DNA of 12,662 bases from Thermoplasmata archaeon (GTDB lineage Archaea > Thermoplasmatota > Thermoplasmata > SG8-5). Position numbers and translations under genes: made by a program. Positions 1,045 to 12,662 of the stretch are shown piece by piece; position 1 is the stretch's first letter, and every line of letters starts with the position of its first letter. The notes under the pieces were generated by a model, which worked only from the letters and a program-made list of their open reading frames with translations, did not search any database and was not told the DNA's origin. The DNA lies in assembly GCA_023136815.1 (NCBI GenBank), contig JAGLQM010000007.1, forward strand, positions 1 through 12,662, in the 5' to 3' direction.

Positions 1045-1078
1045 GTTTTCAGAATATCACAAATATTAGCTGTGCTAA

Positions 1079-1098
1079 ATTACCACACATCTGGTAAT
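1079..1098 (-). terminator. Stem-loop after the carbonic anhydrase-like gene
   Basis: ATTACCA (1079-1085) pairs perfectly with TGGTAAT (1092-1098) around a 6-base loop, 9 bases past the minus-strand gene end at 1107. A second small hairpin, TTAGC/GCTAA at 1066-1078, follows. The position suggests transcript termination or 3'-end protection. There is no strong T-run. Confidence 0.4.
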
Positions 1099-1106
1099 AA
1101 TATTCA

Positions 1107-1607
1107 CTAATATTGCTGGAATTCACCATCTTTATGACGCTTGGCCAGTTCAACATAGGTTTGTGCGTTTTTTAGCGCATATTCTTCCAGAGATTTGTCG
1201 CCTTCACGAACAATCTTACCAGGCACGCCAACAACCAAACTATTTGGTGGAATTTCAGCCCCTTCCTTGACCAAAGCTCCAGCAGCGATTATTGAACCAT
1301 GGCCGATAACTGAACCATTGAGAACTACAGCTTTCATGCCAACTATGACATTATTCTCAATTGTGGCACCATGAACAACTGCCCCGTGACCCAGCGAAAC
1401 ATTATTTCCGATTTTTGTGGAATTGACATCATCAACATGAATGACACAATTATCTTGAACATTTGAATTATCACCAATAAAAATGCTGTTCTGGTCTCCC
1501 CGGATAACTGCATTTGGCCATACGCCAGTATTTTTGCCAATGGTAATGTCACCAATTATGACTGCGGTCTTGTGCACGAAACATGAATCATGGACCTCTG
1601 GTTTCAT
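1107..1607 (-). CDS. Gamma-class carbonic anhydrase-like protein (left-handed beta-helix hexapeptide repeats)
   Basis: This 166-residue protein is built of hexapeptide repeats (IGDITIGKN, IGNNVSLGHGA, IENNVIVGMKAVVLNGSVIG) that fold as a left-handed beta helix and trimerise. The three metal-ligand histidines of gamma carbonic anhydrases are present: H57 in VIHVDD, then H74 and H79 in GHGAVVHG. The conserved R36/D38 (RGD) and Q51-D52 are also there. It lacks the long acidic loop of the Methanosarcina Cam enzyme, so it belongs with the shorter CamH/YrdA/ferripyochelin-binding-like group, some of whose members are not demonstrably active. Known chemistry is CO2 hydration using Zn or Fe. I chose ATG at 1607 because a TATA box lies 27 bases upstream, which fits a leaderless mRNA; an in-frame TTG at 1649 would add 14 non-family residues. 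It is divergent from the 1693 gene. Confidence 0.88.
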   Translation of the reverse strand: MKPEVHDSCFVHKTAVIIGDITIGKNTGVWPNAVIRGDQNSIFIGDNSNVQDNCVIHVDDVNSTKIGNNVSLGHGAVVHGATIENNVIVGMKAVVLNGSVIGHGSIIAAGALVKEGAEIPPNSLVVGVPGKIVREGDKSLEEYALKNAQTYVELAKRHKDGEFQQY

Positions 1608-1628
1608 GAAGCCGCATATCTTATTCAG

Positions 1629-1638
1629 GATAATAAAA
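1629..1638 (-). promoter_or_regulatory. TATA box giving a leaderless mRNA for the carbonic anhydrase-like gene
   Basis: The minus strand reads TTTTATTATC, centred 27 bases before ATG 1607. This placement is the main reason for preferring that start over the upstream TTG. Confidence 0.5.
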
Positions 1639-1660
1639 TTTCCCGGCAATCCGTGAAAAG

Positions 1661-1670
1661 ATATTAATAT
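1661..1670 (+). promoter_or_regulatory. TATA box of the small conserved archaeal gene
   Basis: ATATTAATAT is a perfect palindrome centred 27 bases before ATG 1693, the spacing of a leaderless archaeal promoter. Confidence 0.5.
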
Positions 1671-1692
1671 TCAGAAAACCTATTAACGGTTG

Positions 1693-1950
1693 ATGAGAAC
1701 CTACCTGACAGTTATGTTCAGCACCGAGGGAAACCTTCCCTCAGAAATAGCTGACCGGCTCCAGATGATTGGCTTCAAGCCATGTACTGGAAACTATGAT
1801 TTTGTATACCATTGGGATAAAAATGCATCTCTGGAAGATACAATATACTTTGCTGATAAAGTCCATGAAGTCCTCAAGGATATGGGCGTAATGTTCAGCA
1901 CTGAAACCGATGAGATGCCAAAACTTGTTCCTGAGGATGGGGAATTCTAA
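1693..1950 (+). CDS. Small conserved archaeal protein of unknown function
   Basis: This is an 85-residue protein. The pattern MRTYLTVMFSTEG, then IADRLQMIGFKP, then GNYDFVYHW, then FADKVHEVLK, then VMFSTETDE resembles, from memory, a small uncharacterised family found across Euryarchaeota. The alternation of predicted beta strands and helices (beta-alpha-beta-beta-alpha-beta) suggests a ferredoxin-like or ACT-like fold; that is inference. There is no signal peptide or membrane segment, and its single cysteine (C32) argues against metal binding through cysteines. ATG 1693 is preferred over the TTG just before it because the TATA box at 1661-1670 places the transcript start at this ATG. It is divergent from the carbonic anhydrase-like gene and is followed by stem-loops. 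Confidence 0.8.
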   Translation: MRTYLTVMFSTEGNLPSEIADRLQMIGFKPCTGNYDFVYHWDKNASLEDTIYFADKVHEVLKDMGVMFSTETDEMPKLVPEDGEF

Positions 1951-1960
1951 ATTGTAACAT

Positions 1961-2010
1961 GCAGAATCACTTGATTCTGTAACGGATTCGTTAGAATACG
2001 AGATTTCGTA
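1961..2010 (+). repeat. Three tandem short hairpins between the small archaeal gene and nadC
   Basis: Three inverted repeats stand side by side: CAGAATC-ACTT-GATTCTG (1962-1979), TAACG-GATT-CGTTA (1980-1993) and TACGA-GATT-TCGTA (1997-2010). All are perfect and have 4-base loops, and the last two share the loop GATT. They begin 10 bases after the upstream stop codon and end 16 bases before the nadC TATA-like box. They could terminate the upstream transcript or be operator sites. Confidence 0.6.
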
Positions 2011-2025
2011 ATAATACAAGGAAAA

Positions 2026-2035
2026 CTTTTTAGAC
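2026..2035 (+). promoter_or_regulatory. TATA-like box of nadC (leaderless)
   Basis: CTTTTTAGAC lies with its centre about 26 bases before ATG 2056. It is weaker than the other boxes here, but the spacing matches the leaderless pattern. Confidence 0.4.
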
Positions 2036-2045
2036 ATCCCGCATA

Positions 2046-2057
2046 ATGACTAGTCAT
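2046..2057 (+). promoter_or_regulatory. 12-base perfect palindrome over the nadC start
   Basis: ATGACTAGTCAT is a perfect palindrome covering the expected transcription start and the first two bases of the nadC start codon. A dimeric repressor bound here would block initiation. That role is inferred from position only. Confidence 0.3.
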
Positions 2058-2868
2058 GGAACCCCACGAATACCTGGTCGAGGATCTGCTTGACATAGGA
2101 GATATAACCAGCCAGGCACTTATTTCCGACGAAAAAATCGAAGCACATATTATAGCAAAGGAAAATTGTGTAGTTGCCGGAATGTCCGTTGCCAGCCAGA
2201 TATTTGAGAAAGAGGGTATAGAAGTCCAAATTTTGATAAATGATGGCGAGACCGTGATAGACGGAAAGCCGGTGATGGTTCTCCAGGGAAGTGCCGCTGC
2301 AATATTAAAAACAGAAAGACTGGCTCTTAATTTTATACAACGTCTGGCAGGCATAGCTACCATAACCAGAAACCTTGTGAACATTTGCAAGCCCCTGAAC
2401 CCTAACATCAAGATTGCTGCAACCAGGAAGACCACGCCAGGACTCAGAAAGTTCGAAAAGGACGCCGTAGAAATTGGCGGTGGCATGCGGCATCGGGAAG
2501 GCCTATACGATCAAATTTTGATTAAAGATAATCATCTAAAAATTGTAGGCTCGGTGAGCATGGCAGTCAGAAAGGCCAGAGAATCCGGCCTGTCAAAAGT
2601 CATAGAAGTTGAGGTTGTTAATGTTGCCGGGGCAAAGGAAGCAGCCCAGGAAAAGGCAGATATCATATTGCTGGACAATATGGAGCCCAACAAGGCCAAA
2701 AGCATTGCTGAAATTATCAGAAATATTCACCCAGAAGCAATCATAGAAATTTCAGGCGGCATAAACCCTGATAATATAGCCGGATATGCTGATTTTGCAG
2801 ATGTTATTTCATTGGGATGGCTTACGCATTCGGTGAAGGCGGTTGATTTTTCAATGGAATTTTGTTAA
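2056..2868 (+). CDS. nadC: Nicotinate-nucleotide pyrophosphorylase (quinolinate phosphoribosyltransferase)
   Basis: This 270-residue enzyme converts quinolinate and PRPP to nicotinate mononucleotide, CO2 and pyrophosphate, feeding NAD synthesis in the cytoplasm. Hallmarks in order are EDLLDIGDITS near the N-terminus, TERLALNFIQRLAGIAT (86-102), TRKTTPGLRKFEKDAVEIGG (123-142) with the PRPP/quinolinate-binding Arg and Lys, H146-R147, KDNH (157-160), the acidic EVEV (184-187), LLDN (205-208) and SGGI (233-236) for phosphate binding. Length is normal for the family. Near the end, SLGWLTHS has Trp where many homologues have Ala. No nadA or nadB lies beside it. A leaderless promoter at 2026-2035 fits this start. 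The palindromes upstream may regulate it. Confidence 0.95.
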   Translation: MEPHEYLVEDLLDIGDITSQALISDEKIEAHIIAKENCVVAGMSVASQIFEKEGIEVQILINDGETVIDGKPVMVLQGSAAAILKTERLALNFIQRLAGIATITRNLVNICKPLNPNIKIAATRKTTPGLRKFEKDAVEIGGGMRHREGLYDQILIKDNHLKIVGSVSMAVRKARESGLSKVIEVEVVNVAGAKEAAQEKADIILLDNMEPNKAKSIAEIIRNIHPEAIIEISGGINPDNIAGYADFADVISLGWLTHSVKAVDFSMEFC

Positions 2869-2870
2869 TA

Positions 2871-2945
2871 ATCCACAAGAGTTCGCTATTTTGTGGATAC
2901 TGGAGAAAAAACACGGCGGCGATAGAACGCCGTTGTTTTTTCTCC
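2871..2945. terminator. Two hairpins between convergent nadC and tag (likely two-way terminator)
   Basis: The first stem pairs ATCCACAA (2871-2878) with TTGTGGAT (2891-2898). The second is much longer: 2902-2918 pairs with 2928-2945 over 17 base pairs with one bulged T (2933), closing the loop 2919-2927. Its arms contain six A (2906-2911) and six T (2936-2941), so read from either strand the 3' arm ends in a U-tract. This sits two bases after the nadC stop and faces the incoming tag transcript, so termination in both directions is the simplest reading. Confidence 0.6.
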
Positions 2946-3065
2946 GCAAATTTAAATTTTCGACAGCGGAACTTTGCTCCTGGCGTTTCTAGATTAACAG
3001 AATAGTTGCCAGTTCATACCGCAGGGTGCAATTAATTCCAGTTTCATACTATTTTTGACACGTTG

Positions 3066-3641
3066 CTATTCAACACATTCCATCCATCTAAAGCATCCGA
3101 CAACATGGTCATTCACCATGCCAGTCGCCTGCATGTGGGCGTAGATGATGGTTGGCCCTACAAATCTGAAGCCGCATTTTTTCATTTCCTTGGATATGAC
3201 CTCTGCAAGCTCAGTCTTGGCCGGTATCTGGCTCATGTCCTTCCACTTGTTAACAATGGGTTTGTCGTCAACAAATCCCCACAGAAAATCACTGAAGCTG
3301 CCGAACTCCTTCTGGACCTTCAGGAACGCCTTTGCATTGGATATGGCAGCCGATATCTTCCGTTTATTACGGACAATTCCAGCGTCCTGCATGAGCCGGT
3401 CAATATCTTTCTGGGTATATTTGGCAATCTTTCTGGCATCAAATCCTGAAAATGCATTTCTGAAATTCTCCCGTTTCCGCAAGATAGTAATCCAGCTGAG
3501 GCCTGCCTGGAAACATTCCAGTATCAGAAATTCAAATAACTGGTCGTCATCTTTCAGGGGCTTTCCCCATTCAGTGTCATGGTATTTTTCGTAAAGAGGA
3601 TCGCCACTGGCCCAGGCACATCTCTGTTTTTCAGAAGGCAT
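3066..3641 (-). CDS. tag: DNA-3-methyladenine glycosylase I
   Basis: This 191-residue base-excision repair enzyme removes 3-methyladenine from alkylated DNA. The zinc-binding 'snap' typical of Tag is complete: C8 (RCAW), H21 (KYHDTEWG), H179 and C183 (NDHVVGCFR). E42 in LECFQAGLSW corresponds to the conserved glutamate of the base-recognition pocket. The helix-hairpin-helix type fold region and DFLWGFVDDKPIVN also match the family, and length is typical. ATG 3641 is preceded by a GGTGAG ribosome site (3645-3650) and a TATA box at 3672-3680. It is divergent from the nucleotidyltransferase, with 86 bases between start codons, and convergent with nadC. Tag is commoner in bacteria than archaea, so acquisition by transfer is possible but not shown. 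Confidence 0.95.
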   Translation of the reverse strand: MPSEKQRCAWASGDPLYEKYHDTEWGKPLKDDDQLFEFLILECFQAGLSWITILRKRENFRNAFSGFDARKIAKYTQKDIDRLMQDAGIVRNKRKISAAISNAKAFLKVQKEFGSFSDFLWGFVDDKPIVNKWKDMSQIPAKTELAEVISKEMKKCGFRFVGPTIIYAHMQATGMVNDHVVGCFRWMECVE

Positions 3642-3671
3642 TATCTCACCAGGACTGGCAGATATTATTCA

Positions 3672-3680
3672 GTTATTAAG
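3672..3680 (-). promoter_or_regulatory. TATA box of tag
   Basis: The minus strand reads CTTAATAAC. A start near 3650 leaves a very short leader holding the GGTGAG ribosome site at 3645-3650. Confidence 0.45.
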
Positions 3681-3694
3681 ATTCCCGACCGGTG

Positions 3695-3704
3695 AAATAT
3701 ATAT
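3695..3704 (+). promoter_or_regulatory. TATA box of the nucleotidyltransferase gene (leaderless)
   Basis: AAATATATAT is centred about 28 bases before ATG 3728, so the mRNA would begin at or next to the start codon. Confidence 0.5.
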
Positions 3705-3727
3705 TCCAGTAATTCAATCAGTAGTTC

Positions 3728-4228
3728 ATGACACTTGACCGCGATACTGTATTAAATGCGCTTGTTGAGGCCCTGGAGCCTCTGGATTATGTTCATGCCT
3801 TCTGGGAAGGTGGGGCAGTGGGCTTTAGCAGGGCAGATTCATGGTCAGACATTGATGTTCAAGGAATTGTAGACGATGATCATGTGGAAGATGTGTTCAA
3901 GATCGTGAATGAAACACTAGCCAGCCTCACCAAAATAACAGCAAAGTTCCGTCTGCCAGAACCAACCTGGCACGGTCATTCTCAATGTTTTTATAAGCTG
4001 AAAGATGCAAGCCCATTTTTATTGATTGATTTGGCAATCATGAAAGAGAGCACCGAAGCAGATAAATTCGATACCTGGGCAACTCACGGCATTCCGCAAA
4101 TATGCTTTGACAAGAAAGGCCAGGTAGTGGAGGCAAAGATAGATCCAGAGACCCATGCAAAGGCCATAATGGGACGGCTGGAGACGCTGAAGAACCTTTT
4201 CGAGAGATTTTTCACATCATGCCAATGA
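3728..4228 (+). CDS. Nucleotidyltransferase domain protein (Pol beta superfamily), N-terminal part of a split gene
   Basis: This 166-residue protein carries the Pol-beta-type nucleotidyltransferase signature. The glycine motif is WEGGAVGFSRADSWSDID, with metal-binding D41 and D43, and a third acidic residue, D101, sits in LLIDLAIM. Relatives transfer a nucleotide (usually AMP) to a small molecule, antibiotic, protein or RNA; the substrate here is unknown. It stops at TGA 4226-4228 in a helical stretch (RLETLKNLFERFF). The next ORF overlaps by ATGA and continues as the helical C-terminal domain expected in full-length relatives of about 260 residues. It is therefore probably one half of a split or frameshifted gene, although translational coupling of two subunits is possible. 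The start is supported by the TATA box at 3695-3704. Confidence 0.8.
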   Translation: MTLDRDTVLNALVEALEPLDYVHAFWEGGAVGFSRADSWSDIDVQGIVDDDHVEDVFKIVNETLASLTKITAKFRLPEPTWHGHSQCFYKLKDASPFLLIDLAIMKESTEADKFDTWATHGIPQICFDKKGQVVEAKIDPETHAKAIMGRLETLKNLFERFFTSCQ

Positions 4229-4515
4229 AGGAAACCAACAGGGGCAATCATATTGAGGCAATGTTTTTCTATCTGGGCCAGACATATCGGCCGCTGGTTG
4301 AGGTTCTGCGCATGAAGCACTGTCCCCAGAGATTCAATTATGCTGCCAGATATGTATATTATGATTTGCCAGAAGATGTGGTGAAACACCTTGAAAATTT
4401 GATATTCATTAAGCCAGAGGACATGGAGGCCAGCATTGAGGAAGTTAGAAGATGGTTCTGGAAAGAAGCTGAAAGTATCTCCGAGGATGAGATAAAACAA
4501 AGGCTAAGCCAATAA
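4225..4515 (+). CDS. C-terminal helical domain of the split nucleotidyltransferase
   Basis: About 96 residues, starting at the ATG that forms an ATGA overlap with the upstream stop; another in-frame ATG lies at 4219. The sequence is rich in helix, with GNHIEAMFFYLGQTYRPLVEVLRMKHCPQRF and ARYVYYDLP, the kind of domain that follows the catalytic core in single-chain nucleotidyltransferases and helps bind the acceptor. It has no catalytic motif of its own. It lies in the -1 frame relative to the gene before it, next to a run of five T (4208-4212). The options are a true frameshift or assembly error, a natural two-subunit version, or occasional ribosomal slippage. I favour one ancestral gene split by a shift. 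Confidence 0.65.
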   Translation: MKETNRGNHIEAMFFYLGQTYRPLVEVLRMKHCPQRFNYAARYVYYDLPEDVVKHLENLIFIKPEDMEASIEEVRRWFWKEAESISEDEIKQRLSQ

Positions 4516-4522
4516 TAGACTA

Positions 4523-4534
4523 TCTTTAAATATT
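4523..4534 (+). promoter_or_regulatory. TATA box of the zinc-ribbon membrane protein gene
   Basis: TCTTTAAATATT would start transcription near 4553, leaving a short leader with the strong GGAGGAG ribosome site at 4553-4559, five bases before ATG 4565. Confidence 0.5.
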
Positions 4535-4564
4535 CACAAGAAGATTATCCTTGGAGGAGAGAAT

Positions 4565-5200
4565 ATGGCATTTTGTAGATATTGCGGAGCCCAGAAAACA
4601 GATGAGAACGTCAACTGTAGCCAATGTAGTGGAGATATTGGACAGTATTATCAGCCAATTCCCTATGGCCCACCTCAAAGACCATCGCCAGACAATGATG
4701 TTGGAAAGGCACTGGGTATTGTAGCCTTGATAATAGTAATCATAATCATCGTGACAGTGATACTGGCTGCCGTTCTATATGTTGTGGTCATTGGTTTTGG
4801 TAGTGCCAGTGCCAGTGTTTCTACTCCAGTGGGTTCCTGGAACGGCATGGAAGCAACCTCTTCCACATCAGGTGAGCTAACCTTTGGTTACTTTAGCGAA
4901 GATGTGGCACCAACTGATTTACAAATAAGAGTTCAGGAAGGTGGGTCTGATGCTGGCTATATTCTTTGGACAGATGATGCATCCTCAACCACTGTCAGCA
5001 TGAATTGGGTCAATAGACCATCCGGAGCCAGTGCCGAATATACGGATTTCAATATTGCTGGCGGTAATGTAAGTCCAGGAGACAAAATAACACTATATGG
5101 CCTGGAACCAGATACTTCCTATAGCATTGAGGTGTACAATTTACCAACAGATTCGATTATTTATATGGGCGGCACAGATTCATTTATAACAGACCCGTAA
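4565..5200 (+). CDS. Zinc ribbon joined to a pilin-like membrane anchor and extracellular beta domain
   Basis: This 211-residue protein has three parts. Residues 1-25 form a zinc ribbon with CxxC pairs C4/C7 and C18/C21. Residues 26-48 are a Pro/Tyr/Gln-rich linker. Residues 49-79 are a very hydrophobic Ile/Val segment ending VTVILAAVLYVVVIGFG, which closely resembles the N-terminal segment of archaeal type IV pilins and archaellins (Pilin_N/DUF1628 type). The remainder (80-211) is Ser/Thr/Gly-rich and strand-rich, probably a beta-sandwich outside the cell. K48-A49-L50 partly fits an archaeal prepilin peptidase site, although the following Gly is unusual; cleavage there would release the ribbon. 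No partner pilus genes are nearby. The function is unknown: a surface protein or pilin-like anchor is likely. The stop codon lies inside the first copy of the 24-base repeat. Confidence 0.75.
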   Translation: MAFCRYCGAQKTDENVNCSQCSGDIGQYYQPIPYGPPQRPSPDNDVGKALGIVALIIVIIIIVTVILAAVLYVVVIGFGSASASVSTPVGSWNGMEATSSTSGELTFGYFSEDVAPTDLQIRVQEGGSDAGYILWTDDASSTTVSMNWVNRPSGASAEYTDFNIAGGNVSPGDKITLYGLEPDTSYSIEVYNLPTDSIIYMGGTDSFITDP

Positions 5201-5219
5201 ACTATCAGGCCTTAAATAC
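5196..5219 (+). repeat. 24-base intergenic repeat, copy 1
   Basis: This copy contains the stop codon of the zinc-ribbon gene. The pattern is CGTAAACTAYCAG followed by SCCYTAAATAC, shared with 6785-6808 and 12621-12644. The 3' end (5211-5219, CTTAAATAC) looks like an archaeal TATA box with a preceding BRE-like stretch and would start a transcript near 5240. Confidence 0.75.
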
Positions 5220-5237
5220 GGATGAATAAAATTAATT

Positions 5238-5269
5238 CTAACGAAAACCAGGTATGGTTTCCGAGTTAG
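5238..5269 (+). promoter_or_regulatory. Stem-loop downstream of repeat copy 1
   Basis: CTAAC (5238-5242) pairs with GTTAG (5265-5269), and AAACCA (5245-5250) with TGGTTT (5255-5260) around the loop GGTA. The hairpin begins at about the predicted start of transcription from repeat copy 1, and its last base opens a GGTGAG ribosome-like site (5269-5274), so it could hide that site. Confidence 0.35.
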
Positions 5270-5276
5270 GTGAGAC

Positions 5277-5339
5277 ATGTTCAGTAAACCATTATCATGT
5301 ATGTCAAATCTAGAATATATGGCAGCAAGAGAAAGTTAG
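5277..5339 (+). CDS. Possible 20-codon small ORF after repeat copy 1
   Basis: ATG 5277 follows GGTGAG (5269-5274) at the same spacing seen before tag and the acyl-CoA synthetase, and the frame closes at TAG 5337-5339. It encodes about 20 residues (MFSKPLSCMSN...) that I do not recognise. A promoter-like repeat lies upstream. Short ORFs of this size arise often by chance, so support rests on the ribosome site and promoter only. A 58-codon frame from ATG 5297 to 5473 is a competing reading, but it overlaps the opposite-strand gene. Confidence 0.2.
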   Translation: MFSKPLSCMSNLEYMAARES

Positions 5340-5418
5340 CAATCATCCCGGCCAATCATGAACAAGAGATATGCAGGGTTGAAAGAGATACAAAAGATTA
5401 CTGGAAATCATCCGATGT

Positions 5419-5817
5419 TCAGTCCTGGATATGTTCCTCAAGTAAGGCCATTATCTTATTTTCAAACGGATGATTTATGGTGACAAACTTGTTCTTTGGA
5501 TTATAGGATTCCATGGTGATATTGACTATACATGTGCTGCCAGATGCCTTGTTCAGGCCCTCAATGTTCACACCTATGGAAAAAAGAATAAACTCCTCTC
5601 CTTTATTTTCCAGAACATTTTCAATGCCTTCAAACTTGAAAAAACACATATCTCCCTGGGGCACCTTCGAGGCATGAAAGGCTTTCTGCTCCCAGCCTCT
5701 GGCCACCAGGATTTCTTTAATTTTTTCATAAACTGGGCATAACCTTTTACTGTTGGTTTCAAAGGGCTTTCCCATTGTTACCTTACACGGTTTTAATTTC
5801 AAAGTAGCCCTGGACAT
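5419..5817 (-). CDS. Hypothetical protein, unrecognised family
   Basis: A 132-residue soluble protein that I do not recognise. It has no signal peptide or membrane segment. Its pattern of LCPVYEKIKEILVARGW (an amphipathic helix), FFKFEGIENVL, GEEFILFSIGVNIEG, STCIVNITMESYNPKN and HPFENKIMALLEEH suggests a compact alpha+beta fold in which two helices bracket a beta-sheet. Four cysteines are scattered rather than paired as a metal site. I start it at ATG 5817 because a TATA box lies at 5846-5855 and the upstream in-frame TTG (5841) adds only eight residues. It is convergent with the zinc-ribbon gene and divergent from the nuclease-like gene. No function is inferred. Confidence 0.6.
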   Translation of the reverse strand: MSRATLKLKPCKVTMGKPFETNSKRLCPVYEKIKEILVARGWEQKAFHASKVPQGDMCFFKFEGIENVLENKGEEFILFSIGVNIEGLNKASGSTCIVNITMESYNPKNKFVTINHPFENKIMALLEEHIQD

Positions 5818-6099
5818 ATTTACCCCAGGGTTCCCATGCAAAGTTGTTTAAAAGGCTTTTCCCCTGATATTTACGTTATATTGCTATTGTGTCTCCACCA
5901 CAGGAAAAATTCTTCCATTTTATTATGAACATCTGCCATAACAATGTCAGATGCCGCATGAACTCAGTATCCTTCTCTTGCTGTCATTGTAACCTATTTT
6001 TGACACTATAATGACGCAATCAAAAATTAGTATGCGTAGATTTGACAAATGTAAATGCGGCTTAAATATCAAATTTACGTTGTGACAATTCAAATATGG
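5818..6099. other. Divergent intergenic region with two promoters
   Basis: This 282-base AT-rich gap holds the TATA box of the minus-strand hypothetical gene (CCTTTTAAAC, 5846-5855) and that of the plus-strand nuclease-like gene (CTTAAATATC, 6061-6070). A short dyad ATTTG-A-CAAAT lies at 6040-6050, just before the second box. I see no convincing gene in the middle, 5860-6030. Confidence 0.5.
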
Positions 6100-6789
6100 A
6101 TGGTACATTATACATTCGTGAAATCTCCAATCATCGGAACACTCTCGGAAAAAGGCCTCCATGCCGACATAAAGAACTTTCTAGCCCAGCCTGGCGACAA
6201 AATTGAAAACCCAGTGGATGGGTTTGTAGCGGATATTTTCAGGGACGGGCTGATAATTGAAATTCAAACGCAGAATTTCGGAGCAATTAGGAAGAAGCTC
6301 ACTTACCTCCTGGGATATTATCCGGTACATCTGGTCCATCCAATAGCAGTGGAGAGGATAATAATCTGGCAGGACTCCGAAGGAAAGGAACTTAGAAGGA
6401 GAAAGTCACCAAAGAAGGGCAGGGCTATAGACATCTTCAAAGAACTTGTTTATATCAGAGGTTTGGTAATGCATCCGAATCTGACTTTTGAAATTCTAAT
6501 GACCAGAGAGGAGGTTATCCGCCGCCAGGACTCGAAAAGAAAAAAGTGGAAAGGATGGTATGTTTATGACCGCGGGCTGATCGAGATTGTGGATAGGATT
6601 ATGCTGGGTTCGTACAGTGATTTTAAGAATCTTCTGCCGAAGGACCTTGGTCTGCCCTTCACAAATAAGGACCTGGCTCAGAAGCTTGGATGCACTCATC
6701 GTCATGCTGGAGCGATTACCTACACAATGCGACGTATGGGCATAATCAGTGAGGTTGGCAAGCGTAGTAATGCTATTCTGTATGCGTAA
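6100..6789 (+). CDS. Probable PD-(D/E)XK-like nuclease with C-terminal winged helix
   Basis: A 229-residue protein from ATG 6100. The N-terminal half contains LSEKGLHADIKNFL, then PVDGFVADI, then LIIEIQTQNFGAIRKKL. The spacing of D40 and E54-x-Q56 matches the D...ExK/Q core of PD-(D/E)XK nucleases, with Gln in place of Lys. The middle has RRRKSPKKGR (99-108), a basic patch. The last 80 residues (LLPKDLGLPFTNKDLAQKLGC ... AITYTMRRMGIISEVGKR) look like a winged-helix DNA-binding domain. From memory, similar uncharacterised proteins occur in bacteria, including Chloroflexi, so transfer is possible. No methylase or partner is adjacent, so it is unlikely to be a simple restriction enzyme. An upstream in-frame ATG at 6055 lies before the TATA box (6061-6070) and is less likely; a GTG at 6118 is another option. 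Confidence 0.65.
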   Translation: MVHYTFVKSPIIGTLSEKGLHADIKNFLAQPGDKIENPVDGFVADIFRDGLIIEIQTQNFGAIRKKLTYLLGYYPVHLVHPIAVERIIIWQDSEGKELRRRKSPKKGRAIDIFKELVYIRGLVMHPNLTFEILMTREEVIRRQDSKRKKWKGWYVYDRGLIEIVDRIMLGSYSDFKNLLPKDLGLPFTNKDLAQKLGCTHRHAGAITYTMRRMGIISEVGKRSNAILYA

Positions 6790-6808
6790 ACTACCAGCCC
6801 CTAAATAC
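6785..6808 (+). repeat. 24-base intergenic repeat, copy 2
   Basis: It contains the stop codon of the nuclease-like gene, as copy 1 does for its gene. It differs from copy 3 at two positions. The 3' end CCTAAATAC (6800-6808) is TATA-like and would start a plus-strand transcript near 6829, into the hairpin chain that follows. Confidence 0.75.
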
Positions 6809-6809
6809 A

Positions 6810-6966
6810 GCTGAAAACCTTCGGTTCTCAGCCTACTCACAACGAACAGTCGTTGTTCGTACACCTAACGGTCAAAGTTAGGATGTAAGGGGGCCTAGGT
6901 AGATGCTGGCTTTTCAAAAGCCAGCCTGAAACGTATTGCAAGCACCCTAACAGCTATACTCTAGCT
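6810..6966. ncRNA. Candidate structured RNA or hairpin cluster between convergent genes
   Basis: Five hairpins fill the gap between the nuclease-like gene and fhs. H1 pairs 6810-6819 with 6823-6832 (9 of 10 pairs). H2 has two competing forms: ACAACGA/TCGTTGT (6839-6856) or ACGAAC/GTTCGT (6842-6860). H3 pairs TACA+CCTAAC (6860-6869) with GTTAGG+TGTA (6877-6887), one bulge. H4 pairs 6905-6914 with 6916-6925 perfectly, and may sit on a lower stem 6888-6894/6942-6948. H5 is AGCTA/TAGCT (6952-6966). The repeat at 6785-6808 supplies a possible plus-strand promoter, so H2-H5 could be an RNA of about 130-140 bases. It does not match tRNA, 5S, SRP or RNase P signatures that I can recognise. Strand is uncertain. 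It could instead be paired 3' ends of the two genes. Confidence 0.35.
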
Positions 6967-6974
6967 CCTGAAAT

Positions 6975-8630
6975 TTAGAATAAGCCAACCACATTACCGT
7001 CATCATCCATATCAATTTTCTCGGCTGCGGGGTGACGCGGAAGTCCTGGCATTCTCATTATTTCACCTGCGATTGGAATTATGAAACCTGCTCCGGCAGA
7101 AAGTTTGACCTCTCGAATATGAACTTCAAAGCCTTCTGGTGCGCCTATTAGTCTTTTGTTATCTGAGAACGAATACTGGGTCTTGGCAAGGCAAAGCGGC
7201 AAATCACGGTATCCCAGCTCCTCCCAGCGTTTAATATATTTCTTGGCTGTTGGAGAATACGTAACACTTTCAGCCCGGTAAATTTTCTTGGACAGCATTT
7301 CTATTTTTTCCTTTATTCCAATATCAAGCGGATAAGCATAATTGGGCATTTTATCGTCGATATTTGACAGAACTGCCTTGGCAAGTTCAATGCTTCCTTC
7401 AGAACCCTTGGCATGAGCCTCGGTTTCAATGCATTCTGTACCATAGCTCTGGCAGAGTTCGATTATGCGTTTCTTCTCGGTTTCAGTATCATTTCCATGA
7501 ACATTGAGACAGACAACTGGCTTCCATCCGAAACCCTGAATGTTCTCAATATGCCTCTGAAGGTTCACAAAGCCTTTTTCCACGGCTTGAACATTTTCCT
7601 TGCCCAGTTCCTTCTTTTTGATGCCGCCATGATACTTCAGTGCCTTGATGGTGGCTACAATGACCACTGCAGCTATTGGTAATTCTGATTTTCTACTAAA
7701 TATATCAAAGAATTTTTCTGCACCCAGGTCAGCACCAAAACCTGCTTCAGTCACATAGTAATCTGCAAGATGAAGCCCGAGTCTGGCTGCTATTAATGAT
7801 GAAGTTCCATGGGCGATGTTTGCGAATGGTCCACCATGAATGATTGCCGGGTCACCATCTATTGTCTGGACAAGATTTGGCTTGATTGCGTCCTTCAGGA
7901 GTACGGTCATTGGGCCAGCAGCATTCAGGTCTCTGCAATAAACTGGATCTCCATTTACTCCGAAGCCCACAAGGGCATTGCCCAGCATTTCCTTGAGTTC
8001 AGATGGATTTTTGCAGAGGCAGAGAATGGCCATTACTTCCGAGGCCGCGGTAATATCGAAGTGTTCTTCGTCAATCATTCCGCTCTTTCTGCCGCCCAGA
8101 CCAACAACAACATGTCTCAGCGAGCGGTCATTCATGTCTATGACCCTTGGCCAGTCTATTCTGCGAGAATCTAAATTAAAATTATTATCAAAATGCATGC
8201 TATTATTGATGAGAGTTGAAAGAAGATTATGCGCCGAAGTTATTGCATGCAAATCCCCAGTAAAATGAAGGTTGATGTCCTCCATTGGAAGTACCTGGCT
8301 GTATCCGCCGCCTGCTGCACCGCCCTTGATTCCGAATACCGGACCAAGAGATGGTTCGCGCAAGCCAACAACCGTATTCTTGCCCAGGCGGTTTAGAGCC
8401 ATTGACAGACCAATAGCCATTGTTGTTTTTCCTTCTCCGGCTGGAGTGGGACTCATGGCAGTGACCAGAATCATTTTTCCATTTCTTTTTGAGAGACTCA
8501 TCTGGTCCACAGCAACCTTGGCCTTGTTGCAGCCAAATGGCAAAAGTAAATCATCAAGGCCGATTTTTGCACCTATGTCCTCAATTGGCTGTAATTTCAC
8601 TTCCCTGGCTATGTCAATATCTTCCTTCAT
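6975..8630 (-). CDS. fhs: Formate-tetrahydrofolate ligase (10-formyl-THF synthetase)
   Basis: This 551-residue enzyme activates formate with ATP and joins it to tetrahydrofolate, giving 10-formyl-THF for purine synthesis or C1 metabolism. The ATP-binding loop TPAGEGKTT is at residues 62-70, followed by REPSLGP (91-97) and GGAAGGGYSQVLPMEDINLHFTGD (103-126), all family hallmarks; DLNAAGPMTVLLKDAI, GGPFANIAHG and YVTEAGFGADLGAEKF also match. Length is close to the usual 555 or so. I start it at ATG 8630 because a TATA box (8652-8661) lies 26 bases upstream; the in-frame ATG at 8654 overlaps that box and adds eight unlikely residues. Its presence implies a tetrahydrofolate pool, less usual in archaea than tetrahydromethanopterin. 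The promoter is bracketed by a 9-base inverted repeat. Confidence 0.97.
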   Translation of the reverse strand: MKEDIDIAREVKLQPIEDIGAKIGLDDLLLPFGCNKAKVAVDQMSLSKRNGKMILVTAMSPTPAGEGKTTMAIGLSMALNRLGKNTVVGLREPSLGPVFGIKGGAAGGGYSQVLPMEDINLHFTGDLHAITSAHNLLSTLINNSMHFDNNFNLDSRRIDWPRVIDMNDRSLRHVVVGLGGRKSGMIDEEHFDITAASEVMAILCLCKNPSELKEMLGNALVGFGVNGDPVYCRDLNAAGPMTVLLKDAIKPNLVQTIDGDPAIIHGGPFANIAHGTSSLIAARLGLHLADYYVTEAGFGADLGAEKFFDIFSRKSELPIAAVVIVATIKALKYHGGIKKKELGKENVQAVEKGFVNLQRHIENIQGFGWKPVVCLNVHGNDTETEKKRIIELCQSYGTECIETEAHAKGSEGSIELAKAVLSNIDDKMPNYAYPLDIGIKEKIEMLSKKIYRAESVTYSPTAKKYIKRWEELGYRDLPLCLAKTQYSFSDNKRLIGAPEGFEVHIREVKLSAGAGFIIPIAGEIMRMPGLPRHPAAEKIDMDDDGNVVGLF

Positions 8631-8640
8631 GCACCTGTAT

Positions 8641-8683
8641 CCTAACTTTATCATATATAGTTTACACGATTGGAAAAGTTAGG
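8641..8683 (-). promoter_or_regulatory. fhs promoter bracketed by a 9-base inverted repeat
   Basis: The TATA box (minus strand ACTATATATG, 8652-8661) sets a leaderless start at ATG 8630. CCTAACTTT (8641-8649) and AAAGTTAGG (8675-8683) form a perfect inverted repeat on either side of the box, 25 bases apart. This is the arrangement expected of an operator or activator pair; the regulator is unknown. Confidence 0.5.
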
Positions 8684-8695
8684 AGAAACACAGAT

Positions 8696-8794
8696 TTGAC
8701 CACCCTGGTTGGCATATTCAAGGAAGCAAGGTACAGTCTCACACAATCCAAGTTTGGCAGGGAAAGTATTTATACTGTGATGAAATCGCGCTAA
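8696..8794 (+). pseudogene. Possible remnant of a DUF4129-like C-terminus
   Basis: The plus frame here reads LTTLVGIFKEARYS and then about 18 more residues to a TAA at 8792-8794. The IFKEARYS motif recalls the C-terminal tail of DUF4129-type proteins (LxELFEEARYS followed by a charged helix). There is no ATG, ribosome site or credible 5' part, because the frame runs backwards through antisense fhs. If it is real it is a leftover fragment rather than a working gene. Chance resemblance is quite possible. Confidence 0.2.
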
Positions 8795-8828
8795 ATAATC
8801 TATCCCTCAGAATAAAATTGTTGGATAG
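8767..8828 (+). promoter_or_regulatory. Promoter region of the acetate transporter gene
   Basis: TATA-like boxes occur at 8767-8775 (TATTTATAC), 8791-8799 (CTAAATAAT) and 8811-8818 (AATAAAAT). The last would start transcription at about 8841, exactly at a small upstream ORF. CTATCC (8800-8805) and GGATAG (8823-8828) form an inverted repeat around that box. Which box is used cannot be told from sequence. Confidence 0.35.
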
Positions 8829-8840
8829 TTTCTGTCTGAT

Positions 8841-8921
8841 ATGGAAAAAATACAGATAGCCTCAATTGGAGGAATCGAGAACCTGGAACGGTTCGAGAAA
8901 CACCTATTTCAAATAAAATAG
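8841..8921 (+). CDS. Possible 26-codon leader ORF upstream of the transporter
   Basis: ATG 8841 opens a 26-residue frame (starting MEKIQIAS, ending HLFQIK) whose TAG stop at 8919-8921 touches the GGAGGA ribosome site (8921-8926) of the transporter gene. A TATA-like box at 8811-8818 would place the transcript start on this ATG, so it could be translated leaderless. Such an arrangement would couple leader translation to access to the transporter's ribosome site. I do not recognise the peptide. It has no obvious run of one amino acid to suggest attenuation. Confidence 0.35.
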   Translation: MEKIQIASIGGIENLERFEKHLFQIK

Positions 8922-8932
8922 GAGGAATAATG

Positions 8933-9511
8933 ATGGGAATCGTAAACGAAACAAAAATAAGACTGGCCGACCCTGCTCCCCTTGGTATCTTCGGGCTTGC
9001 GATGGCAACACTGGTTGCATCTTCAGAGAAACTTGGACTGACTGAAGGAACTGCCGGGCTTCTGCCCTGGGTTCTTTTTTTAGGAGCATTTGCTCAGATT
9101 TTGGCCTCGGGAATTGAGTTCAAGAGAGATAATATCTTTGCAGCAACGGCCTTCGGTGCATTCGGACTATTCTGGTTCGCAGTTGGAATGACATGGTACT
9201 TCGGATACAGCATAGAGCAATTCGGGTTCGCCATTCTTGGTTATCTGATATTCAGCATATACATGACCTATGCTGCAGCATCAATTAACAAGGCATTTCT
9301 GGTAATATTCGTGTTTATCGACTTGCTACTGGCAGCACTCTTGTTCCAGATATTCGGCGGCGGCCCTGCAATGCTGTCGGGAATAATGGAGCTGGCTGTG
9401 GCAGTTAGCGGCTTCTATGCCTCTGCAGCCATTGTACTAAAGACCATGGCTGGGTTTGAGGTTCTGCCGCTGGGTAAGCCAGTGCTTGAATTGAAGAAAT
9501 TCGAACTCTGA
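8933..9511 (+). CDS. satP: GPR1/FUN34/YaaH (SatP) family acetate transporter
   Basis: A 192-residue membrane protein with about six transmembrane helices and no signal peptide. The family signature near the N-terminus is present as ADPAPLGIFGLA (usual NPAPLGLxGF). The second conserved block is AFAQILASGIEFKRDNIFAATAFGAFGLFW, matching the family's GGxxQxxAGxxEF...NxFxATAFxxYGxFW pattern. Known members carry acetate or succinate, usually with protons, across the cell membrane. ATG 8933 is six bases after GGAGGA (8921-8926); ATG 8930 directly before it is an alternative that adds one Met. An AMP-forming acyl-CoA synthetase lies 1.5 kb downstream on the same strand, which fits uptake and activation of short acids. 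A strong hairpin follows the stop. Confidence 0.92.
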   Translation: MGIVNETKIRLADPAPLGIFGLAMATLVASSEKLGLTEGTAGLLPWVLFLGAFAQILASGIEFKRDNIFAATAFGAFGLFWFAVGMTWYFGYSIEQFGFAILGYLIFSIYMTYAAASINKAFLVIFVFIDLLLAALLFQIFGGGPAMLSGIMELAVAVSGFYASAAIVLKTMAGFEVLPLGKPVLELKKFEL

Positions 9512-9520
9512 TTTGATAAT

Positions 9521-9570
9521 CACAGTTATGGCCGCCCTACAGGCCGTAACTGTGCTCCCTTTCCTTTTTA
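9521..9570 (+). terminator. Hairpin plus T-rich tract after the acetate transporter
   Basis: Arm 9521-9533 (CACAGTTATGGCC) pairs with 9542-9554 over 13 base pairs, counting one G-T pair, around an 8-base loop. A pyrimidine-rich stretch with five T (9565-9569) follows. The same T-rich stretch runs into the TATA box of the next gene, so terminator and promoter are packed end to end. Confidence 0.65.
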
Positions 9571-9577
9571 TAATATA
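9565..9577 (+). promoter_or_regulatory. TATA box of the HD-domain gene (leaderless)
   Basis: TTTTTATAATATA is centred about 29 bases before ATG 9600, and there is no ribosome site, so a leaderless mRNA is expected. Confidence 0.5.
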
Positions 9578-9599
9578 TTTGACTATATGAGAAATTATC

Positions 9600-10907
9600 A
9601 TGTCAAAACGAATCATAATCCATGATACAGTACACGGCAGTATCACACTTGACCCATGTGCTAGTAAATTAATTGGCACGCCTGAGATACGTCGGTTGGG
9701 CGGAATACGCCAGCTTGGTCTCTCAAACATTGTTTTCCCAGGGGCCAACCATACCAGACTGGAACATGTCATGGGAACCTATCACATAGCCCAGAAAGTA
9801 ACTCATGCCCTTGGACTGGAGAAGGAAGAAGCAGACATGGTTTCCTATGCCGCTCTACTTCATGATCTGGGCCATGGACCGTATTCACATACCCTGGAAG
9901 CTATTCTTCACGAAAATGCCAATATGGACCATATGGACCTTACTAAAGACGTGATTCGGGGCAAGGCCAGAATGGTATCTGATTCAGACACTCAGATAAT
10001 TCCCGGACAAACAACAATACCAGACATTTTGAGAGAATTTGGACAGGATCCCAGTAAGATAGCAGACCTTGTATGTGGCGAGGGGAAAACCAAGGAAAAT
10101 GGCCTATACGAACATAATGGCCAAGGTTTTTTCAATGAGAAAAATTACCTTTATCATCTGATTCACGGGTCAATTGACTGCGACCAGATAGATTACTTGC
10201 TCAGAGATTCCCATTATACAGGGGTTGCCCACGGGACTATTGATCTGGCTAGATTACTTCAAACACTCACAATCCATAACAATGATCTGGTAGTGCAGGA
10301 AAAAGGGCTAAGCGCAGTTGAGGGAATGCTGGTTGCTCGAAGCCTCATGTATTCTTCGGTATATTTCCACAAGACCTGCCGCATTGCAGAACTCATGCTT
10401 GTAAAAGCCGTAGAAAAGGCCCTGGACAGAGAAAGTGCAATGACAATTCAGAAGATGGATGATGCCGAGTTAATGGGCTGGCTTTATGGCCTTGGAGGAT
10501 TGCAGAGAGAGATAGTTCAGCGCCTGAAATATCGGGTGCTTTACAAGGCAGCATTTGGCAAGCGAGTGGTAGAACTCTCCGAGGAAGAACAGGCCAGGCT
10601 CATGGAGATAACCCAGAACAAGGAATGGCCAAAGATTGAGAAGGCTATAATTCAGCGTCTAGGGTTGAAAGAGGGGGCAATTATTATTGATTTACCTGAG
10701 CCAGACCTTCTGCTTTCAGAGCCAAGAATTGGCAGGGCAGATATTAAAGTATTATCCGGTGAAAGACTCAAAAACCTTTCCAAATTAACACCATTTTCCA
10801 AGGCAATCCAGCAAAAGAAAATATCCCGCTGGGCAGTGGTAGTGGCCTGCGATAAGAAAAATAGGGACGATGTTGGCAGGACCGCCGAAAAGATTATTTT
10901 TGATTGA
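9600..10907 (+). CDS. HD-domain deoxynucleotide triphosphohydrolase-like protein (SAMHD1/YwfO type)
   Basis: A 435-residue cytoplasmic metal-dependent phosphohydrolase. It begins IIHDTVHGSITLDP, typical of this group. The HD metal site is intact: H56 in TRLEHVMGTYHIA, H88-D89 in LLHDLGHGPYSH, and an aspartate in IDCDQIDYLLRD (D195, with D193 close by), with H92 and H97 as likely catalytic histidines. In SAMHD1 and bacterial relatives this fold hydrolyses dNTPs to deoxynucleosides and triphosphate, limiting the dNTP pool and resisting foreign DNA; the allosteric control seen in SAMHD1 cannot be judged here. The C-terminal 130 residues (after about 300) are less conserved and may mediate oligomer contacts. 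It lies between the transporter and the acyl-CoA synthetase but has its own leaderless promoter, so no functional link is implied. Confidence 0.88.
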   Translation: MSKRIIIHDTVHGSITLDPCASKLIGTPEIRRLGGIRQLGLSNIVFPGANHTRLEHVMGTYHIAQKVTHALGLEKEEADMVSYAALLHDLGHGPYSHTLEAILHENANMDHMDLTKDVIRGKARMVSDSDTQIIPGQTTIPDILREFGQDPSKIADLVCGEGKTKENGLYEHNGQGFFNEKNYLYHLIHGSIDCDQIDYLLRDSHYTGVAHGTIDLARLLQTLTIHNNDLVVQEKGLSAVEGMLVARSLMYSSVYFHKTCRIAELMLVKAVEKALDRESAMTIQKMDDAELMGWLYGLGGLQREIVQRLKYRVLYKAAFGKRVVELSEEEQARLMEITQNKEWPKIEKAIIQRLGLKEGAIIIDLPEPDLLLSEPRIGRADIKVLSGERLKNLSKLTPFSKAIQQKKISRWAVVVACDKKNRDDVGRTAEKIIFD

Positions 10908-10929
10908 TGCACCTGATAAGTTTCGAAAT

Positions 10930-10978
10930 CTTAATTATATATGATTCCATTCTCACTGAATATCAATATATGGTGAGA
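10930..10978 (+). promoter_or_regulatory. Promoter, ribosome site and dyad of the acyl-CoA synthetase gene
   Basis: A TATA box lies at 10930-10942 (CTTAATTATATAT), giving a start near 10961 and a leader of about 20 bases with GGTGAG at 10972-10977. TCTCAC (10951-10956) is complementary to GTGAGA (10973-10978), so the ribosome site is one arm of a dyad; the other arm sits at or just before the predicted transcript start. Confidence 0.45.
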
Positions 10979-10980
10979 TT

Positions 10981-12603
10981 ATGACTGGCTTTGATTATGA
11001 CAAGGAATACAAGGAATGGAAATGGAATGTTCCAGAACAGTTTAACATGGGTGTGGATTGTGTTGACAAACATGTGGCTGCTGGCAAAGGTGACAAGCTC
11101 GCACTCATTTGGGAGAATGAGGCAGGTGATGTAAAAAAGTACACATTTGCCCAGATGAAAGAAGAAAGTGACAAATTTGGCAATGTGCTGCGCAGTCTGG
11201 GATTGAAGAAAGGTGACCGTTTTTTAATTAGACTTCCAAATATTCCTGAGTTCCAGATGGCCTTTCTGGGCGGCCTGAAGATAGGGGCAGTTCCAATACC
11301 TTCATCATGCATGTTCAAACCCACTGAGGTGGAATATCGTATTGTGGATTCAGAGGCAAAGATGGCCATTTCTGTGCCTGACTACGTTTCTGCAATTGAT
11401 GAAATAAAATCCAACTGTCCAACACTAGAGCACATTATTGTTGTAGGAGAGTCTGGCAAGGAGCATATCTCATTCGAGGAATTGATGAGTCAGGCATCTC
11501 CTGATCTCACTCCCGAACCAACCAGCTCGGAGGACATGGCATTCTTCTGTTACACATCAGGAACAACTGGCAACCCAAAGGGCGCAGTTCATTTACAGAG
11601 ATGGGCCATTGGAAATGATCCAGATGCATATTACTGGAATAACTATCAGGATGGAGATATCCTTGGACATACTGGCGATCTGAACTGGATTTTTCCTCTG
11701 GGCAACGGATTCCTCTATGCCTGGCGTCATGGAATGACCAGTTTCATTTATGACGGAAGGTTCAGCCCGGAGAAGTGGTTCGAGCTAATCCAGAAGCATA
11801 AGATTACCAATTTAGCTTCCGTTCCAACCTGCTACAGAATGTTCCTTCAACTGGAAGGATTCGAGAACAAGTGGGACCTTAGCTCTCTGAGGCATTGCAT
11901 TTCAGCAGGAGAGCCACTGAATCCAGAGGTGGTGACCGATTGGAAGCGCCTTCTTGGCATTGACATATTGGATGGGATCGGGATGACCGAATGCATGGTC
12001 TATCTGTCCAATATAAGGGACATGAGCATAAAGCCAGGCTCATGTGGAAAACCACAGCCAGGCCATGTTTGCGCCATCGTAGATGAGTTCGGAAAACCAC
12101 TGGGTCCAAGAGAAGAAGGTACACTGGCGGTCCGGCAGGATGACCCTGGCCTTATGAAGGAATACTGGAACAAGCCCGATAAGACAGCAGAGGCCTTCAA
12201 GAATGGCTGGTTCCTTACAGGCGACACACTTTACATAGATGAGGATGGATATTACTGGTTCGCAGGTCGCGGTGATGATCTTATAATGACTGCTGGCTAC
12301 CGTGTATCGCCCTTTGATGTTGAGAGTGCGGTGAACAAGCATCCAGCAGTGTTGGAATCCGCTGCTGTGGCATCTCCAGACCACATCAGAGGCGTAATTG
12401 TGAAGAGTTTCATTGTTCTGAATCCAGAACATGAGCCAAGTGATGAACTGGCTGCCTCAATCAAGGATCATTGCAAGAAGACAATCGCTGCATATGAATA
12501 TCCTCGTGCCATTGAATTTGTCGATAGCTTGCCAAAGACCCAGAGTGGAAAGACCAAGCGCAAGGTCCTTCGTGAACAAGAGTTAGCCAAATCAAAAACA
12601 TAA
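10981..12603 (+). CDS. AMP-forming acyl-CoA synthetase (acetyl/medium-chain or aryl type)
   Basis: This 540-residue ANL-superfamily enzyme makes acyl-AMP from a carboxylic acid and ATP, then acyl-CoA. Motifs are complete: phosphate loop YTSGTTGNPKG (191-201), DGIGMTE (331-337), WFLTGD with ribose-binding D415, hinge GRGDD (429-433), GYRVSPFDVE (439-448) and the catalytic lysine K524 in QSGKTKRK. At 540 residues it is shorter than classical acetyl-CoA synthetase (about 650) and is closer to the medium-chain ACSM or benzoate-CoA ligase subgroup, supported by GHTGDLNW and LGNGFLYAW. The exact acid is unknown. The SatP-type transporter upstream hints at a short acid, but an independent promoter at 10930 and an HD gene in between argue against a strict operon. 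The start is set by GGTGAG. Confidence 0.93.
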   Translation: MTGFDYDKEYKEWKWNVPEQFNMGVDCVDKHVAAGKGDKLALIWENEAGDVKKYTFAQMKEESDKFGNVLRSLGLKKGDRFLIRLPNIPEFQMAFLGGLKIGAVPIPSSCMFKPTEVEYRIVDSEAKMAISVPDYVSAIDEIKSNCPTLEHIIVVGESGKEHISFEELMSQASPDLTPEPTSSEDMAFFCYTSGTTGNPKGAVHLQRWAIGNDPDAYYWNNYQDGDILGHTGDLNWIFPLGNGFLYAWRHGMTSFIYDGRFSPEKWFELIQKHKITNLASVPTCYRMFLQLEGFENKWDLSSLRHCISAGEPLNPEVVTDWKRLLGIDILDGIGMTECMVYLSNIRDMSIKPGSCGKPQPGHVCAIVDEFGKPLGPREEGTLAVRQDDPGLMKEYWNKPDKTAEAFKNGWFLTGDTLYIDEDGYYWFAGRGDDLIMTAGYRVSPFDVESAVNKHPAVLESAAVASPDHIRGVIVKSFIVLNPEHEPSDELAASIKDHCKKTIAAYEYPRAIEFVDSLPKTQSGKTKRKVLREQELAKSKT

Positions 12604-12620
12604 TTGGTTAGACAATTTCA

Positions 12621-12644
12621 CGTAAACTACCAGGCCTTAAATAC
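12621..12644 (+). repeat. 24-base intergenic repeat, copy 3
   Basis: This copy lies 18 bases after the acyl-CoA synthetase stop rather than on it. It matches copy 1 at 22 of 24 positions and again ends in CTTAAATAC, a TATA-like box pointing off the window. A small dyad AATTG/CAATT (12602-12617) lies between the stop codon and the repeat. Confidence 0.75.
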
Positions 12645-12662
12645 TGCCCAAATTTGACATTT

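Follow-up and report, generated by a model that had tools for sequence, protein, structure and literature searches.

A 24-base repeat occurs three times in a 12,662-nucleotide stretch of DNA from an uncultured Thermoplasmata archaeon (assembly GCA_023136815.1, contig JAGLQM010000007.1, positions 1 to 12,662; hereafter, the window). We are highly confident that this repeat is the terminal part of IS200-type single-strand transposons and of derivatives that lack the transposase, one family that inserts under the direction of a DNA guide and recreates the stop codons at which it lands. The sequence GTAAACTAYCAGSCC is the terminus of an IS200-type insertion sequence. The termini, the transposase link, element-free sites, the complementarity of guide and target, and the frame and occupancy of stop codons were all directly observed.

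The window copies lie at 5196-5219 (copy 1), 6785-6808 (copy 2) and 12621-12644 (copy 3), all on the plus strand. These are exact matches to the pattern, and 200 dinucleotide-preserving shuffles of the window contained none (mean 0.00, maximum 0). The initial annotation, made from the letters of the window, had reported the repeat at these places and strand as far beyond chance, and this was borne out. Its unit was right as a repeat but wrong at the left boundary, as the element begins at the G and the preceding C is excluded. We set the start at this G because two full-length insertion sequence copies match from this end (the head) on, and because the preceding base varies (A in 16, C in 16, G in 2 and T in 31 of 65 copies). 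TAAATAC, taken as the conserved end of the repeat, did not hold up: most rows of 25 aligned elements have TAAAG there. The position is the loop of the terminal hairpin, and TAAATAC was seen in copies of the window's genome and in two copies (L094, L128) of the sister genome G001.

For comparison, 13 assemblies of the order were used (the window's genome and 12 others), which are 59-92% complete; the window's own genome comprises 0.95 Mb and is 61% complete. In G001 and G003, a tnpA gene lies inside elements of 712 bp each (L043, 1370-2081; L044, 1372-2083), which are 86% alike over 714 aligned columns. The similarity runs from the head to CTAAA, and the flanks do not align. The head lies just past the tnpA stop on the opposite strand, and is therefore the right end of the insertion sequence. 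The encoded protein P0001 reached 106.6 bits on the NCBIfam model NF033573 transpos_IS200 (cut-off 55) and 100 bits on PF01797 (cut-off 23). Its matches among solved structures are transposases, ISHp608 included. The DHVH, WS and Y...Q motifs are readable in P0001; according to PMC6006769, these are motifs of subclass 1.1, the only one seen in Archaea. The family thus has the Y1/HUH transposase of the IS200 class that characterizes IS200/IS605 elements. The other Y1 loci compared were 30-33% identical to P0001.

The transposase-free derivatives span 36 to about 300 bp. Among the copies inspected, the gene-free forms were palindromes of 36-55 bp, head-plus-tail forms of ~110 bp, and ~200-bp forms that have an additional hairpin domain and in some cases 29-bp internal tandem repeats or nested hairpin modules. 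The minimal 36-55-bp copies (L061, L065, L082, L087) are palindromic from end to end. Such copies would also suit a system of repetitive extragenic palindromes (REPs) and REP-associated tyrosine transposases (RAYTs), in which short palindromes are spread by a domesticated REP transposase, and the part of PMC3733652 consulted reports repeat-supplied stop codons for GTAG REPs. We consider this origin very improbable. P0001 scored 29.6 bits on the NCBIfam model REP_Tyr_transpos (cut-off 80) versus 106.6 on the IS200 model, tnpA resides in a full element with two unlike ends, and the guides read AACN or AAAN, not GTAG.

Element-free counterparts showed how the elements insert. For 64 elements, we joined the two flanks and compared them with the loci collected; 15 had a match across the junction and 14 of these were inspected (L176 was left uninspected), with L188 dropped as it matched its own tail. 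The junction, including N-TAA, agreed at 10 of the 13 empty sites, and one target base differed at the other three (ATAA in the empty locus of L065/L068 and L020/L039; GTAC for L145/L237). No target duplication was seen at any of the 13. The agreeing pairs within a genome, in paralogous repeats, were L068/L069 (97%), L088/L163 (96%), L069/L071 (95%), L077/L069, L082/L064, L075/L222, L081/L080 and L228/L144, and those between genomes were L031/L062 and L090/L225; small gaps occur further left in L090/L225, L077/L069 and L082/L064. These sites in paralogues and relatives place the insertion 5' of [G/C]TAA, and the element has the fixed short target without duplication expected of IS200/IS605 members. 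Six of the G003 loci (L061, L068, L069, L071, L076, L077) belong to another dispersed repeat family, which is a target for these elements.

The site of copy 3 is empty in two genomes. G002 reads ..GACAATTTCAC|GTAAAGCG, matching the left flank of copy 3, and G001 reads ..ACAATTTCACGTAAGGCG; the comparison covers the left flank, as the right one lies beyond the contig. In G001, the orthologous gene has an insertion of its own, placed exactly at the stop codon (..AAATCAAAAGC|GTAAACTACC...TTTCCA|CTAATTGGCC), where G002 is element-free (..AAAAAT TGA TTGGCC). This gene end has therefore been hit twice.

The target base adjoining the element proved to be matched by a base within it. The IS608 guide, which lies 5' of the left hairpin, is AAAG and base-pairs with a TTAC target (PMC5934647). 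Using a separate, stricter tail pattern that is independent of the head, we collected 88 distinct tails. The fourth guide base, which precedes the left-end hairpin, was complementary to the adjoining target base in 83 of them. On the tnpA strand, the pairs were AACC-TTAG (31), AACG-TTAC (19), AAAG-TTAC (15, the exact IS608 pair), AAAA-TTAT (11) and AACA-TTAT (7). After clustering of the tails at 95, 90, 85 and 80%, complementarity was found in 29/32, 20/23, 14/15 and 6/7, respectively. Among 110 tail pairs at least 85% alike with differing guide bases, both members fit in 45, and each of the other 65 includes at least one of the five tails that do not fit. Because the target base is external to the element, common descent of the elements does not by itself produce this complementarity, which is what the DNA-guide model of IS608 predicts. 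Judged by covariation, the family thus has the guide of IS200/IS605 elements. The 88 left ends, 83 of them with a target-matching guide base, amount to a natural test of that model, and the guide types suggest that IS200-type guides are rewritable in evolution.

The elements share a fold. A first tail pattern found tails for 69 of 252 head copies and a relaxed one for 104; copies without a recognised tail (contig-cut, nested, minimal or degenerate copies and chance head matches) stayed out of the alignment. The 25 aligned elements are 26 clustered elements minus L052 and L089 plus L065, and this alignment replaces one in which some ends were guessed. The 37 pairs of the fold were paired at 96.1%, with 98.0% and 96.0% for the two helices of the head stem, 96.0% for the tail hairpin and 90.0% for the tail clamp. 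Subterminal hairpins are thus present at both ends, and terminal inverted repeats are absent, as in the IS200/IS605 family. At 18 of the 37 pairs, both sides changed, in 107 cells; shuffles gave a mean of 34.9, and none of 500 was as high. The covariation was 0.311; shuffling lowered it to 0.137 and sliding to 0.075 or less. Further pair types numbered 26, no more than in the shuffles, of which 467 of 500 were as high. Over the head, core and tail, there were 22 A.C cells (G.T on the tnpA strand) versus 7 G.U cells, a count of cells that are not independent events and that leaves out a two-pair row with one A.C cell. This imbalance favours the tnpA strand as the one that folds, as single-strand transposition would need.

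The strong covariation could also be read as that of a structured RNA: a regulator in a 3' untranslated region, a terminator or a TnpB guide RNA end. It could have spread by transposition or otherwise, the core of the ~200-nt form being kept for RNA function. The terminal hairpins are reminiscent of TnpB element ends. We find an RNA role unlikely. The A.C excess points to the strand TnpA would read, no Rfam family matched at the gathering score in the window, and lax settings with five sources returned one chance-level small nucleolar RNA match (8519-8562). The TnpB domain PF01385 was found in 0 of the 13 genomes, with a control matching in 7 of 14, and PF07282 was not found in the window's own genome; the guide RNA candidate was dropped on these results.

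The genomic orientation of the copies was also informative. For 144 classified copies, 10 of which lie inside called open reading frames (ORFs), the left-hand gene was sense in 73 (19 exactly at its stop) and antisense in 51. Without the stop insertions, the ratio was 54 sense to 51 antisense and the bias was gone, which likewise goes against an RNA role. The right-hand gene was co-oriented in 64, opposed in 67 and not called in 3. These counts speak against a general promoter or terminator role.

The initial annotation had suggested a promoter, reading the 3' half as a B recognition element (BRE) plus a TATA box and each copy as part of one regulon with a shared upstream operator. By eye, CCTTAAATAC does resemble BRE/TATA, and the copies adjoin genes. 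The promoter and its regulon are nevertheless unsupported, and we regard them as extremely improbable for the repeat as a whole; single copies could still act as promoters. TAAATAC sits in a hairpin loop and is not conserved among relatives, the following genes are co-oriented no more often than opposed (64 versus 67), copies 1 and 2 point at convergent ORFs, and single sites occur with or without a copy as clean insertions. The last observation agrees with the other option in that annotation, a dispersed element, which was right. A conspicuous repeat of uncultured Thermoplasmata is thereby explained, with a caution against taking it for a promoter.

The element begins G-TAA-AC and the target is N-TAA; as the two share TAA, an insertion at a TAA stop recreates an in-frame TAA. 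The right end ..TTTAC (GTAAA.. on the strand shown) would put this TAA in place and leave the preceding coding sequence intact except, at most, for the final base of its last codon. Since the right end carries the in-frame TAA, the stop of the preceding gene is provided by the element at two of the three places in the window. As annotated, copies 1 and 2 contain the TAA of the gene before them: 5198-5200 (+) is the stop of ORF 4565-5200, and 6787-6789 (+) that of ORF 6055-6789. Both fit a stop-recreating insertion. An upstream stretch of 400 nt or more was available for 216 copies; 44 of them directly adjoined a same-strand open frame that had 80 or more codons and was longer than any on the opposite strand. 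Thirty of these were in the stop frame, and 8 and 6 in the other two; for open frames of at least 200 codons, 23 of 23 were in the stop frame.

Occupancy was calculated from stretches of G003 and G001 fetched around copies, with genes called by ORF length (at least 90 codons). As the stretches were chosen for holding copies, the rates are comparable between site classes, but not absolute. Occupied [ACG]TAA sites amounted to 16/118 at stops, 14/250 at 1-60 nt after a stop, 67/2823 in other intergenic positions and 9/6246 within genes. Occupancy was highest at stops (p = 0.013 versus 1-60 nt; p = 9e-8 versus other intergenic). For [CG]TAA, G003 had 8/48 at stops versus 59/1009 in intergenic sequence (p = 0.008), and G001 had 8/21 versus 29/692 (p = 3e-6). 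Site counts requiring TAAA were not used, since the element itself gives every occupied site the reading GTAAA. Stops would be favoured through insertion preference or through survival. We tentatively put forward target mimicry, to which we give slightly less than an even chance: the right end GTAAA would copy the N-TAA core, stops would be safe and preferred sites, and one transposase would serve derivatives with guides diversified to TTAC, TTAG and TTAT. If stops are truly preferred, this would let a transposon persist harmlessly in dense genomes by simple means.

On the model of IS608, rare full-length copies would produce a Y1/HUH TnpA able to recognise the hairpin close to either end. Next to the left hairpin, a DNA guide of four bases (AACC, AACG, AAAG, AAAA or AACA) would pair with the cleavage site. 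The elements would leave their sites in single-stranded form and integrate precisely 3' of TTAG, TTAC or TTAT (5' of N-TAA on the strand shown). The biochemical steps are carried over from IS608, and the TnpA described here would also move the transposase-free derivatives.

Several observations weigh against this picture. The tnpA type occurs at just 2 of 11 Y1 places in the 13 genomes, and it was not found in the window's own, 61% complete genome, where the sole Y1 gene (L040) is 31% identical to P0001 and has no head in its locus. G008 has 111 repeat copies and no Y1 match. Five of the 88 tails break the guide rule (AACA-TTAC in two, AACC-TTAC in two and AACT-TTAG in one). Nine of the 13 empty sites are within a genome; just four are between genomes, and two of these four differ by one base. 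In the window, copies 1 and 2 are degenerate, and where each stops on the 3' side is a guess.

A search of the genome and its relatives, proposed in the initial annotation, did yield further copies. With up to 3 mismatches allowed, the window's own genome holds 9 copies, against 0 for the reversed-pattern control; a 20-base core, with up to 2 mismatches, occurs 12 times. The core was found in 11 of the 13 genomes, with 4-155 copies in 10 of the 12 others: 155 in G003, 111 in G008, 70 in G007, 55 in G001, 47 in G012, 23 in G010, 14 in G006, 10 in G011, 5 in G005 and 4 in G002; G004 and G009 had 0. The G006 count may be inflated, as G006 and G010, which are placed in different families, seem to share contigs through a binning fault or contamination. 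At least four G006 places (on C69 and C44) have in-contig coordinates identical to G010 places (on C58 and C32), and C69 and C58 coincided in a second search as well. In a class-wide search, 14 of 300 genomes matched: the 11 just given, plus 3 from among the 287 genomes not of this order; each of the three had one two-mismatch match, and the reversed-pattern control gives single matches of a similar order. Named records contain the repeat in at least 115 stretches of at least 9 assemblies, those listed being metagenome assemblies labelled Thermoplasmata, Thermoplasmatota, Methanomassiliicoccales or 'Euryarchaeota'. A contig end lies within 141 bp of 4 of the 12 own copies (C178:12622, C187, C136, C128) and within 230 bp for C139. 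With 5 of 12 copies running into contig ends, the repeat also seems to break the assembly.

In the window, copy 1 is a transposase-free IS200-type element at 5197-5283 (+), with the terminus GTAAACTATCAGGCC from 5197. It contains a two-hairpin module, GGATGAATAAAATTAATTC / CGAAAACC..GGTTTCCG. Its 3' end is best placed before GTAA at 5284, and this is a guess because an apparent relic of another hairpin repeat follows; its subfamily mate L006 is readable to ..GTGCGGCA|GTAA. The two-hairpin module was seen in the loop of the head hairpin in L028, L032, L038, L188, L197 and the window (5220-5265); its stems differ in sequence between copies, and complementarity is largely kept. The preceding gene (4565-5200, +, 211 aa) gave a weak archaeal pilin-like match (21.4 bits, under the cut-off of 25.2). 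Of the five homologues compared, four (G001, G002, G005, G011) end at the same length, and that of G012 is two residues longer.

Copy 2 is an element at 6786-6884 (+) with the terminus GTAAACTACCAGCCCC and three further hairpins, the first two of which recur within G001 elements such as L093. Its target is probably GTAAGG at 6885, and the end of the element is uncertain. The preceding gene (6055-6789, +, 244 aa) is present in 10 of the 12 other genomes, and its product matched no Pfam or NCBIfam family. Six of the eight orthologues compared end at the same length, and those of G009 and G012 are 2-4 residues longer. As most homologues of both genes end at equal length and the rest are 2-4 residues longer, neither gene was shortened. 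The G002 orthologue of the copy 2 gene (G002:C189:7308-8009, L247) has two in-frame TGA codons, indicating either a pseudogene or a sequence error. A palindrome at 6905-6925 (GCTGGCTTTTCAAAAGCCAGC, no strand assigned) was considered as part of copy 2 and dropped, as a similar hairpin follows the orthologue in G001 (L246), where no element is present; by this comparison, it probably belongs to the ancestral gene end. L246 (G001 C133) also has CGGTTCACCCCCACGCTTGTGGGGAATACRC-like stretches twice with other sequence between, which have the look of the start of a CRISPR array.

Copy 3 (12622-12662, +) is cut by the contig end, and a look at what follows it, also proposed in the initial annotation, was limited by this: from about 12647, there is another hairpin repeat, CCCAAATTTGACATTT. 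The preceding gene (10981-12603, +) is of the AMP-binding acyl-CoA synthetase type. The annotated distance of 18 bases from its stop is correct for the element proper (12622), while the 24-mer (12621) lies 17 bases past it. Copies 1 and 2 each point into the 3' end of an opposite-strand ORF. At 12647-12662 of the window and in L007, L008, L009, L097 and L105, a second type of small hairpin repeat (GCAAATTTGACA..TGTCAAATTTGC, TCCTATTTTTGAC..GTCAAAAATAGGA) is nested within or next to the elements. The elements of L053, L054, L073 and L090 contain tandem amplifications of a 29-bp unit (ACGATGCATGGCGGGTCATGCATATGAGC and close variants).

We found no description of this family, or of stop-regenerating IS200-type insertion, among the titles and abstract openings listed from the partly covered open literature. 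The closest known relatives of the derivatives are the palindrome-associated transposable elements (PATEs) of Haloquadratum walsbyi. In the passages of PMC3119063 compared, PATEs are defined by near-terminal palindromes without terminal inverted repeats, lack of target duplication, a length too short for a transposase and termini related to an IS605-type transposon. All of these were found here, the last through the tnpA-bearing copies of G001 and G003, which share both ends. Both groups have very short terminal-only forms (52 bp in PATEs, 36-55 bp here), and in both, other small hairpin repeats interrupt the terminal palindromes; the nested second hairpin repeat resembles the SMR-A repeats attacking PATEs in Haloquadratum. 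Unlike PATEs, as far as those passages go, the present family has an IS200-type parent without tnpB, regenerates stop codons, has a covarying core domain of ~70 nt common to families of the order, and occurs in three guide/target versions.

With IS200/IS608, the family shares the Y1/HUH TnpA, subterminal hairpins, insertion 3' of a fixed tetranucleotide, and guide bases beside the hairpin that pair with the cleavage site (PMC5934647 and PMC6006769, in the sections covered). It differs from IS608, as described there, in lacking tnpB, in a fourth target base that may be C, G or T with a matching guide base within one family, and in a right-end cleavage site (TTTAC) that resembles the target; the IS608 site is TCAA. 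Like GTAG REPs with RAYTs in the portion of PMC3733652 consulted, the elements are high-copy, small extragenic palindromes, and GTAG REPs sometimes supply a stop (TAG) to the preceding ORF. The guide, transposase class and element anatomy differ from those given there, and the stop is recreated here via the TAA common to target and terminus, as an element-free sister allele shows. The kind of element is known; the family, the natural guide variation and the stop-neutral landing appear to be new.

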